Positions 6,332 through 47,915 of a stretch of 64,000 nucleotides of DNA are shown piece by piece (positions within the stretch are counted from its first letter, which is position 1; each line of letters begins with the position of its first letter). The translations under genes were made by a program, and so were the position numbers. This DNA is from Bacteroidia bacterium (GTDB lineage Bacteria > Bacteroidota > Bacteroidia > J057), in assembly GCA_030430205.1 (NCBI GenBank), contig JAUIGE010000004.1, positions 62,001-126,000 on the forward strand, written 5' to 3'. The notes under the pieces are model-generated. The model ran no database searches and was not told where the DNA came from. It worked only from the letters and a program-made list of their open reading frames with translations.

Positions 6332-6392
6332 TTAAGCTTCCCTTCATTTCTTATCATAAAAACCCCCGTTATCAGCGTCTATTCTTTAATTC
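6332..6392 (+). repeat. Interspersed leader element, copy A (upstream of gene at 6403)
   Basis: Contains TTTAAGC, CATTTCTTATCATAAAAA and CGTTATCAGCGTCTATTCTT in order, ending 10 bases before the ATG at 6403. The same blocks, in the same order and orientation relative to the next gene, recur upstream of minus-strand genes near 21.35, 44.85, 46.4 and 47.9 kb. Confidence 0.85.
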
Positions 6393-21324: not shown

Positions 21325-21395
21325 AAGAATAGACGCAGATAACGCGGGTTGTTATGATAAGAAATGTAGGCTCGCTTAAATGATCTGCGTCAAAA
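21325..21395 (-). repeat. Interspersed leader element, copy B (upstream of the GH20 gene)
   Basis: Read toward the GH20 gene it has AAGCGAGCCTACATTTC, TTATCATAACAA and GTTATCTGCGTCTATTCTT. The copy is bounded by a perfect 9-bp inverted pair on the + strand, GACGCAGAT (21332-21340) and ATCTGCGTC (21383-21391), giving it the look of a small stem-loop or MITE-like unit. Confidence 0.88.
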
Positions 21396-21528
21396 CTCTT
21401 TCCATTTATGGCACTCCGGTTCTCTTTTTTGGGTATCTGCCAAAAATCCAAAATTGTGAGTATCTTGTTCCCGAATTATCGGACATTTCTTAATTGGGAT
21501 ATAATCTACATTTGCTACCTAACCTCTC

Positions 21529-32549: not shown

Positions 32550-32571
32550 GTTTTTGGGGTGGTTGAATGGA

Positions 32572-32586
32572 AGAATAGACGCAGAT
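32572..32586 (-). repeat. Half copy of the interspersed leader element (copy F)
   Basis: AGAATAGACGCAGAT on the + strand equals the gene-proximal end of the leader element. The distal half with CTACATTTCTTATCATAA is absent. As in the full copies it sits just before a gene start (32549). Confidence 0.7.
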
Positions 32587-32593
32587 TGTACCT

Positions 32594-44795: not shown

Positions 44796-45018
44796 AATGT
44801 AGAGTTTTTAGTGAAAAAGAAGAATAGACGCTGGTAAGGCAGATGGTTATGATAAAAAATGTAGGCTCGCTTAAAATGATCCCCCCTGTTTAAAACATCT
44901 TCAATCCTAAAAACCAGTGTCGATCTGCGTCAAAATTCTTCTTCTATCTATGTCAACCCCCGCCCCAAACCATCAGCGCTCAAACTCAGGAAATCGCAAT
45001 TCCGGTATCACCGTGTTT
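44796..45018. other. Intergenic region between the PKS operon and a DUF1016 gene
   Basis: Holds leader-element copy C (44820-44881) and, at 44926-44945, ATCTGCGTCAAAATTCTT, the same distal word found next to copy B. No coding signal. The promoter of the eight-gene operon should lie here on the minus strand. Confidence 0.5.
44820..44881 (-). repeat. Interspersed leader element, copy C (upstream of the PKS operon)
   Basis: Read toward the operon it has AAGCGAGCCTACATTTT, TTATCATAACCATCTG and ACCAGCGTCTATTCTTC, 25 bases before the ATG of the FAD gene (44795). Same order and orientation as the other copies. Confidence 0.88.
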
Positions 45019-46053
45019 TTATTCATCATGGTCTTGTTCTGTAGCGTTTAGCTCTTTGAGGATCAGGGCTTGCAGTTTGTCTTTTGGCAGGAGCAGTTGG
45101 TATTCGGCTACGCCTATGGGCTTGTTGATGTCTTGCAGGGCAATTTCAACATCGAGGTGGTCTTTATCAGCGCAGAGAATGATGCCGATAGAGGGCTTTT
45201 CGTTTTCGCCTTTTTCGATTCGGTCGAGCAGGGAGAGGTAGAAGTTCATCTTGCCCACGTATTCGGGCTTGAAGCTGCCTATTTTCAGCTCAATCGCCAC
45301 CAAAGAGCGCAAGCCTCTATGAAAGAAAAGCATGTCTACAAAATACTCTTTGCTGTTAAATTCCAGTCGGTATTGGTTGCCAATAAAAGAGAAGCCCTTG
45401 CCTAATTCCAGAATGAAAGCCCTGATTTTGGCAATGAGTTTTTGCTCCAGTTCTCTTTCTTTGAGGGGTGCGGTGATCCCTAAAAAACCCAGGTTGTAGC
45501 TGCTTTTGAACACTTCATTGGCGTATTCGGCATGAACTTCGGGGAGCGTCTGGTCAAAATTATGGGTCTTGATCTGTTGTTGTGCCTGGCTGTAGGTATC
45601 CATCTTTAAGGCATTGAGCAGCAAGTCTCTCGACCAGCCTTTGGTGAGGATTTCGTCTGCGTAGAACCTTACGGCATGATGCGACTGAATTTTATCGAGC
45701 AGAAGCAGGTTGTGCCCCCATGGCAAAACTGCTACAGCTTGTAGCAGTTTTTCATCTGCCTGATGATAGCGCTCATAAAAGCGTTTCATATTCCACAAAT
45801 TCCGTGGCGACACGCCCATATCGGGAAACTCGCTTTTCAAATCGACAGAAAGCTGTTTTACCACGCCACTGCCATAGCCCTCTGCCACTTGTTTTTCAAA
45901 GAGCAGTTTGCCCAGCTTCCAATAAATCGTATTGGCGCTGCGGTTGACTTGTTTGGCAATGGCCGTACGGGCTGCACGGATTTCCATAACCGCCAACCTG
46001 AGGATTTCAGCATACACATCATGGTTCAGATTTGAGGGGCTATTCTTACTCAT
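45019..46053 (-). CDS. DUF1016 / PD-(D/E)XK nuclease domain protein (YhcG family), full length
   Basis: 344 residues. N-terminal DUF1016 domain: RSANTIYWKLGKLLFEKQ, SPRNLWNMKRFYERY, LPWGHNLLLLDKI. C-terminal nuclease domain from about 190: YRLEFNSKEYFVDMLFFH with Asp, then LVAIELKIGSFKPEYVGKMNFYL giving the Glu-x-Lys of a PD-(D/E)XK site. YhcG proteins are linked with restriction-modification and other defence islands and with DNA repair of stalled structures. The gene follows a 225-base remnant that looks like the start of a type I restriction R subunit. Probably a functional orphan. Confidence 0.9.
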   Translation of the reverse strand: MSKNSPSNLNHDVYAEILRLAVMEIRAARTAIAKQVNRSANTIYWKLGKLLFEKQVAEGYGSGVVKQLSVDLKSEFPDMGVSPRNLWNMKRFYERYHQADEKLLQAVAVLPWGHNLLLLDKIQSHHAVRFYADEILTKGWSRDLLLNALKMDTYSQAQQQIKTHNFDQTLPEVHAEYANEVFKSSYNLGFLGITAPLKERELEQKLIAKIRAFILELGKGFSFIGNQYRLEFNSKEYFVDMLFFHRGLRSLVAIELKIGSFKPEYVGKMNFYLSLLDRIEKGENEKPSIGIILCADKDHLDVEIALQDINKPIGVAEYQLLLPKDKLQALILKELNATEQDHDE

Positions 46054-46073
46054 AAGCTGCTAATCCTGAAATT

Positions 46074-46298
46074 TCACGCCCCTGGGCTAGTTTTTGTAAT
46101 TGGGGCGCCTTTAATATTGGCAAAAGGTGTAATGAAGGGGGGTACCATCTTCCCGTTGGAAATATTGTCTTTCATCCAACAATTTAGATGCTGCAAAAAC
46201 ATCGGGTTCGATGATTTAACGATATCCAGTCGATAGGTATATTTAAGCTCCGTTAGTTGCTTGATTAGGTTTTCTTCTATTTGAGATTCTTTAGTCAT
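46074..46298 (-). pseudogene. Remnant resembling the N-terminus of a type I restriction HsdR subunit
   Basis: 74 residues opening with TKESQIEENLIKQLTELKYTYRLDI, which resembles the start of many HsdR proteins (ESQIE...L..LKYTYR.DI). After that the sequence does not resemble HsdR further (MKDNISNGKMVPPFITPF), and it ends after about one tenth of the normal length (about 1000 residues). No nuclease or helicase motifs remain. Twenty bases before the DUF1016 nuclease gene in the same direction. Most likely the stump of a deleted restriction operon. Confidence 0.6.
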
Positions 46299-46373
46299 TC
46301 ATTTTCGAATAAATGGAGAAAGCCAAAATACTTCTTTTATCTCGTTTTGCGATAGATAAATCGGTCATTATTA

Positions 46374-46437
46374 AGAATAGACGCTGGTAAGGCAGATTTT
46401 ATGATAAAAAATGAAGGCTCGCTTAGATGATCCACCC
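46374..46437 (-). repeat. Interspersed leader element, copy D
   Basis: Contains AAGAATAGACGCTGGTAAGG, TTTTATGATAAAAAATGAAGG and CTCGCTTAGATGATC on the + strand. It precedes the minus-strand HsdR-like remnant at 46298 and is oriented like the other copies relative to a minus-strand gene. Confidence 0.85.
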
Positions 46438-47856: not shown

Positions 47857-47915
47857 AAGAATAGACGCTGAATACGCAGATTTTTATGATAAGAAAGGTA
47901 GGCTCGCTTAAATGA
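47857..47915 (-). repeat. Interspersed leader element, copy E (upstream of CotH gene)
   Basis: On the + strand: AAGAATAGACGCTGAATACG, then TTTTTATGATAAGAAAGGTAGG and CTCGCTTAAATGAT. It ends about 26 bases before the CotH start when read toward the gene. Confidence 0.88.

Follow-up and report, generated by a model that had tools for sequence, protein, structure and literature searches.

The repeats scattered through the 64,000-nucleotide stretch of DNA analysed here (the window) are best explained as decayed, non-autonomous copies of a small mobile palindromic element, which we call family 1. A gene-bearing member of this family, present in the same genome, encodes a GxxExxY protein. Our preferred reading, to which we assign a probability of about 0.6, is that the REPIN-like hairpins of family 1 are moved by this GxxExxY protein, a predicted PD-(D/E)XK nuclease, for which we infer both recognition of the arms and catalysis.

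The repeat family in the window and across the genome

The first-pass annotation described five near-full copies and a half copy of a shared element in the window, and all six were recovered within a base or two of where it placed them. All were found with the arm profile:

6332..6392, + strand: family-1 copy with a single arm (A-type right arm, 6343-6386), other arm gone
21325..21401, - strand: family-1 copy B, with an A-type arm (21325-21368), an internal segment and a B-type arm remnant (21380-21398)
32571..32589, - strand: A-type arm end, fragment
44820..44941, - strand: complete family-1 element, with an A-type arm (44820-44863) and an inverted B-type arm (44894-44943)
46373..46437, - strand: family-1 copy with an A-type arm (46373-46415), other arm gone
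47857..47915, - strand: family-1 copy with an A-type arm (47857-47900), other arm gone

The five longer copies are matched at E-values of 4e-15 to 1e-11 by an arm profile built from the window's own subfamily and of 5e-13 to 5e-9 by a wider profile built without the parent element described below, while the half copy reaches 0.01-0.02. Since the arm models include the window copies, these values show coherence, and independent support comes from the family's genome-wide occurrence. The window copies form a subfamily with an arm one base shorter, and, read outwards from the inner end, their shared part is TTATCATAA.AAYC.GCGT..ATCTGCGTCTATTCTT. At 44820 the element is complete and two-ended, with a second, inverted arm that the first-pass annotation overlooked. 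The perfect 9-bp inverted pair reported for copy B (GACGCAGAT/ATCTGCGTC) is exact, at 21332-21340 and 21383-21391, and its partner is a remnant of the second (B-type) arm. Genes around the window copies include those for a GH20 hexosaminidase, a xylose-isomerase-like protein, an FAD oxidoreductase, a YhcG-type nuclease and a CotH kinase; the ORF neighbouring the copy at 46373 is a 74-aa remnant. At 45019-46300 the gene for the YhcG-type PD-(D/E)XK nuclease adjoins a 74-aa remnant ORF beginning MTKESQIEEN.

A BLAST search of copy B against its own genome (7.24 Mb in 80 contigs) gave 41 matches, and a 45-position arm model identified at least 150 family-1 arms genome-wide. Among the arms listed, neighbouring pairs no more than 800 bp apart face outward in 41 cases, inward ('+-') in 2 and in tandem ('++') in 1. 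Because the arm pairs face outward, the arms are terminal inverted repeats. The elements are mostly 89-141 bp long with ends of the form AAGAR...YTCTT, and on inspection usually have one 'A' end, GCGTC[CT]A[CT]TCTT, and one 'B' end, TTTTGACGC. Each arm is built from three units of ~9-10 bp (ATCATAAAA / ATC[A/T]GCGTAA / ATC[T/A]GCGTC). On the contig that contains the window, a stretch of ~10 kb upstream of it holds six family-1 arms (C43:42678-54798; loci L241 and L227). Well-preserved relatives form strong, near-perfect hairpins (z -7.6 to -7.8), whereas folding is weak in the window copies (z -0.55 and -2.1), a difference that fits the decay of a palindromic element and not a maintained leader structure.

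Of the three ideas in the first-pass annotation, a MITE-like element, a mobile promoter and a shared 5' UTR regulator, the first is supported and the other two are contradicted by the orientation of the copies genome-wide. In the window, the 'TTCTT' end of every copy does lie close to a plausible start codon, ~15-75 bases away, and all point the same way relative to the gene, as the annotation had observed and as would be expected of leaders. Genome-wide, this arrangement disappears: the 44 A ends are split between 18 facing the 5' side of a gene and 19 facing the 3' side, with 7 assigned to neither, and the B ends between 12 and 21, with 12 assigned to neither, a further 25 arms having no clear end type. 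These counts come from 114 arms with enough flank and from crude gene calls (the longest stop-free frame), which replaced an earlier caller that mis-assigned loci L009, L013 and L017 (judged by eye) and L021 (wrong strand). An Rfam search of the window returned 0 matches. Given also that the window copies have lost most of their folding, it is highly improbable that they are 5' UTR regulators, mobile promoters or leaders retained for gene control. Individual copies could affect nearby expression even if they are not leaders, and such hairpin copies should not be taken for regulatory leaders.

Family 1 has the features of a MITE in being short, non-coding and multi-copy, with terminal inverted repeats and a gene-bearing relative that has the same termini. 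Target-site duplications of at least 6 bp were found at the ends of 0 of 41 elements (mispaired flanks, 1.3%), against 5 of 6 copies of a conventional MITE of the same genome, family X, scored with the same function at a tighter offset. Family X is 162-163 bp long with ends ATCCTACTAG..TAGTAGTAT, and its duplications, of 9-10 bp, were counted over the 6 of 7 loci located by pattern. In a search for base-exact empty sites of family 1, the relatives were too diverged (only ~69% identical), and no spanning match was found for the joined flanks of the own-genome loci.

Family-1 elements are also nested with those of families 2 and 3. On contig C61 a family-3 hairpin lies inside a family-2 element that itself lies inside a family-1 element, and the family-2/family-3 composite recurs at an unrelated site on C10; reciprocally, on C71 a family-2 element is inserted in family 3. 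These cases are mutual insertions and the movement of a composite. At least 9 near-identical family-2 copies lie inside the family X MITE (loci including L266, L268-L271, L280 and L282), and their spread within it means that family-2 copy number is not wholly due to GxxExxY. At a separate locus (L019 1249-1564, C11) a family-1 element encloses a different palindrome, GTCATTTCGACGAG..GGAGAAATCTCCT, and pieces of this palindrome also lie beside L275 and L283.

GxxExxY genes between inverted arms

The own genome has 4 matches to PF13366, 3 of them strong and above the cut-off. One of the three genes (L056) is flanked by family-1 arms in an element of 517 bp, and its intact 137-aa ORF scores 129 bits against the GxxExxY profile; against TIGR04256 this gene and the other two score 125, 147 and 134 bits, with a cut-off of 35. 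Both arms of the 517-bp element are detected by models built without it (E 8.9e-14 and 2.2e-10, in 3.3 kb) and by the window-subfamily model alone (E 3e-7 and 7.5e-4). The element is thus a member of family 1, the only gene-bearing one in this genome, and the apparent full-length parent of the family. Six family-1 pairs are longer than 200 bp, and on inspection the five others contain other palindromes and not a GxxExxY gene. Each of the three GxxExxY genes sits within an arm family of its own, and each of these families is dispersed; those of L054 and L055 are composed of ACAGGATT and CATATAAGG units and have 63 and 38 matches in the genome, respectively, counts that include overlapping both-strand matches and tandem copies.

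Two other gene families were considered as partners of family 1 and rejected. None of the 3 loci for Y1 transposases (PF01797) has family-1 arms in the flanks examined, L058 being at a contig end, and the PF05635 genes lie outside family-1 arms. The latter, of the 23S rRNA intervening-sequence/four-helix type (L061, L062 and L063, on C80, C71 and C41), have tandem short repeats of the CCCGAAAC, TTGTCCA and TTCGTCA types alongside. These repeats apparently have mostly the same orientation on both sides and are not inverted, and may represent a sister system.

GxxExxY (PF13366) genes occur in 64 of the 100 relatives searched. In a first set of 112 loci, inverted arms within 400 bp either side of the gene score at least 17 in 51, a level reached in 0 of 110 windows further out and in 6 of 896 mispaired flanks. 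This set comprised 80 of the ~150 matches listed in relatives, 29 sequences given as loci and the 3 own-genome genes; it left out 2 rows with an internal stop, a few near contig starts and lower-ranked rows, and retained in the arm test 8 loci that lack the plain GxxExxY pattern and 1 with a stop. A second, independent set of named loci (77 testable of 80) gave arms in 37 of 77, whereas outer windows gave them in 0 of 65 and other neighbouring genes in the same loci in 3 of 137. Mispaired flanks in this set reach the threshold of 17 in 39 of 617 cases because close relatives share arms. The GxxExxY genes that score below 17 and lack clear arms number 61 of 112 and 40 of 77; some of them may be domesticated, or arms may decay fast. 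Arm units recur at lags of 9-10 bp. From arm to arm, gene included, the median length is 515 bp, and the median distances from arm to gene are 25 and 22 bp.

The arms co-vary with the protein. Across 1746 pairs of loci from different taxonomic families, arm similarity correlates with protein identity at rho 0.47, a value matched by 0 of 2000 permutations (best 0.212) and falling to 0.04 in a reverse-complement control; the comparison used the 61 of 112 loci with an arm score of at least 15 and a clean protein. Such co-variation could arise from joint horizontal transfer of arms and gene without binding. In the sister-species pairs L054/L108 and L055/L177, the match between arm and protein is repeated at non-homologous flanks.

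Loci in which arms adjoin the gene carry the labels Bacteroidota, Ignavibacteria, Chloroflexota, Planctomycetota, Cyanobacteria and Alphaproteobacteria, many of them being metagenome bins. The search of phages found no match; that of plasmids matched 8 records, with clear arms in 2 of the 4 inspected. In Sphingomonas parapaucimobilis (L426 2468-2931) a GxxExxY gene lies within the fabD-fabG operon, with arm-like sequence on one side only. A locus from a bin labelled Rhizobium sp. (L327) is 71-73% identical to Flavobacterium loci, and the bin is probably mislabelled or contaminated.

The cassette is variably present at one site in Flavobacterium and has inverted there. It is oriented one way in L369 and its relatives, and the block is inverted between matching flanks in L379 and its relatives. 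Among 19 genomes, chosen for carrying a GxxExxY gene somewhere, the site has the forward cassette in 2, the inverted cassette in 4 and no such gene in 10, in which the flank genes are adjacent; 3 were uninformative. From sequence likeness we take the flank genes to be trpS and plsC.

The GxxExxY protein is likely a PD-(D/E)XK nuclease, with catalysis suggested by its conserved residues and predicted fold. In 22 aligned sequences E27 (of the GxxExxY motif), D67 and K79 are invariant and E77 and Q91 are at least 90% conserved, and the E, D, ExK and Q positions are conserved in the parent ORF. The AlphaFold model of a relative (L370) has a pLDDT of 95; the structure alignment covered 63 of the 80 named loci. 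Foldseek places SSO0001, which we take to be a Cas4, at the top for this model (E 1.8e-3, probability 1.00); further down its ranking are an R2 retrotransposon protein and lambda exonuclease. The VIA comparison yields Z scores of 9.8 with SSO0001 and 7.1 with Hjc, and Pcal_0546, named Cas4 in the list, ranks 4 in the structure comparison. The predicted fold is thus nearest to Cas4, followed by restriction enzymes and Hjc. By sequence, no significant relatives were found in the PDB, and profile similarity to Cas4 and to candidate defence families is weak.

Candidate mechanism and alternatives

If the GxxExxY nuclease moves family 1, it would recognise its own arms through their tandem 9-10 bp units, most likely once the palindrome has been extruded into a hairpin or cruciform, as could happen at a replication fork. 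It would then cut at the hairpin base, and the hairpin would be copied or pasted elsewhere, the target not being duplicated. The short copies that lack a gene would be mobilised in trans.

It is possible, though we consider it unlikely, that the arms are moved by other machinery, whether host replication with template switching or a Y1 or DDE transposase acting in trans, and that GxxExxY is a passenger between recombining arms. There are more hairpins than genes, and other palindromes of this genome that do have target duplications carry family-2 hairpins; moreover, slippage could extend the 9-10 bp arm units, and the Flavobacterium inversion is what recombination between inverted arms would be expected to produce. 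Against this reading, the protein family is bracketed by arms far above controls in many taxa, and the arm sequence follows the protein sequence across families. The lack of family-1 arms at the Y1 loci in the flanks examined and of target duplications in family 1 likewise argues against such machinery.

The absence of duplications, set against 5 of 6 in the conventional MITE, also makes it very unlikely that these small, intergenic, multi-copy elements with terminal inverted repeats are conventional MITEs whose DDE transposase has been lost or is encoded at another place in the genome, and the protein-bearing family member encodes a nuclease of another kind. We give equally little credence to a role for GxxExxY as a restrained defensive or toxic nuclease whose arms are its transcription terminators or operators. 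The weak similarity to Cas4 and defence families and the closeness of arms to gene are consistent with such a role, but dispersed gene-less copies and nested insertions are unexpected of operators or terminators.

Related systems and implications

The proposed mobilisation by the GxxExxY nuclease has its nearest working analogue in REPIN/RAYT, where, in the parts of the published account drawn on here, the RAYT is a Y1 (HUH) tyrosine transposase associated with short REP units (PMC3116915). Both systems have a single-copy nuclease-type gene adjoining its own class of inverted-repeat hairpin, many gene-less copies, several lineages per genome, and co-variation of repeat and protein; in this genome three families comprise dispersed gene-less hairpin doublets that are class-specific to a nearby single gene. 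The systems differ in that the protein here is a predicted PD-(D/E)XK nuclease and the arms are longer, with 9-10 bp units, and no Y1 tyrosine transposase was found next to the repeats in the flanks examined of the 3 PF01797 loci.

The MITEs BrickBuilt of Porphyromonas gingivalis (PMC4596501) and MITECca01 of Cardinium (PMC9769881) resemble family 1, as far as the sections consulted describe them, in being short, non-coding and intergenic, with inverted termini and a gene-bearing parent or kin. They are, however, tied to insertion-sequence ends, whereas family 1 shows no duplicated target and has a parent that codes for a predicted nuclease, not for any recognised transposase. CGTC-tagged REPs are 20-40 bp long with an unpaired CGTC tag and stems of 8-9 bp and, in the portion of the source used, are reported without a dedicated transposase, the superfamily being explicitly left without an enzyme (PMC3733652). 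They too are palindromic and dispersed, are reported in Bacteroidetes among others, and recall the CGTC near the family-1 end. We rejected an assignment of family 1 to this group: its CGTC lies inside the paired arm, pairing with GACG of the other arm, and its elements are larger (~90-140 bp; mostly 89-141 bp). The Coxiella 23S rRNA IVS is likewise a short element that is bounded by inverted repeats and contains a single small ORF, and its origin is described as unclear in the extract consulted (PMC4990558); it differs in encoding an S23 four-helix protein, not a nuclease, and in being sited in rRNA genes.

A link between GxxExxY and repeats was not found in the open-licence PMC literature, a scope that leaves out subscription journals and preprints; GxxExxY is named in only 2 open PMC papers and PF13366 in 1 more, and GxxExxY occurs in no title or abstract. 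On a wider view, the case is evenly balanced that GxxExxY elements form a class of bacterial mobile DNA that is widespread but has gone unrecognised: ~500 bp long, with a PD-(D/E)XK gene between arms of 9-10 bp units, making no target duplication, invertible in place, and the source of many short repeats of the ACGCAGATT, CACAGAG, CGCAAAG and ACAGGATT types. Repeats of the CACAGAG type are common in bacteria, a statement that the loci inspected here support.

If this is true, the GxxExxY class would be functionally equivalent to RAYT/REPIN while relying on an unrelated enzyme. Linking the GxxExxY protein to repeats suggests a function for it that can be tested and offers a candidate enzyme for orphan repeat families, and the compact nuclease-arm pairs may be of use in studies of hairpin processing.
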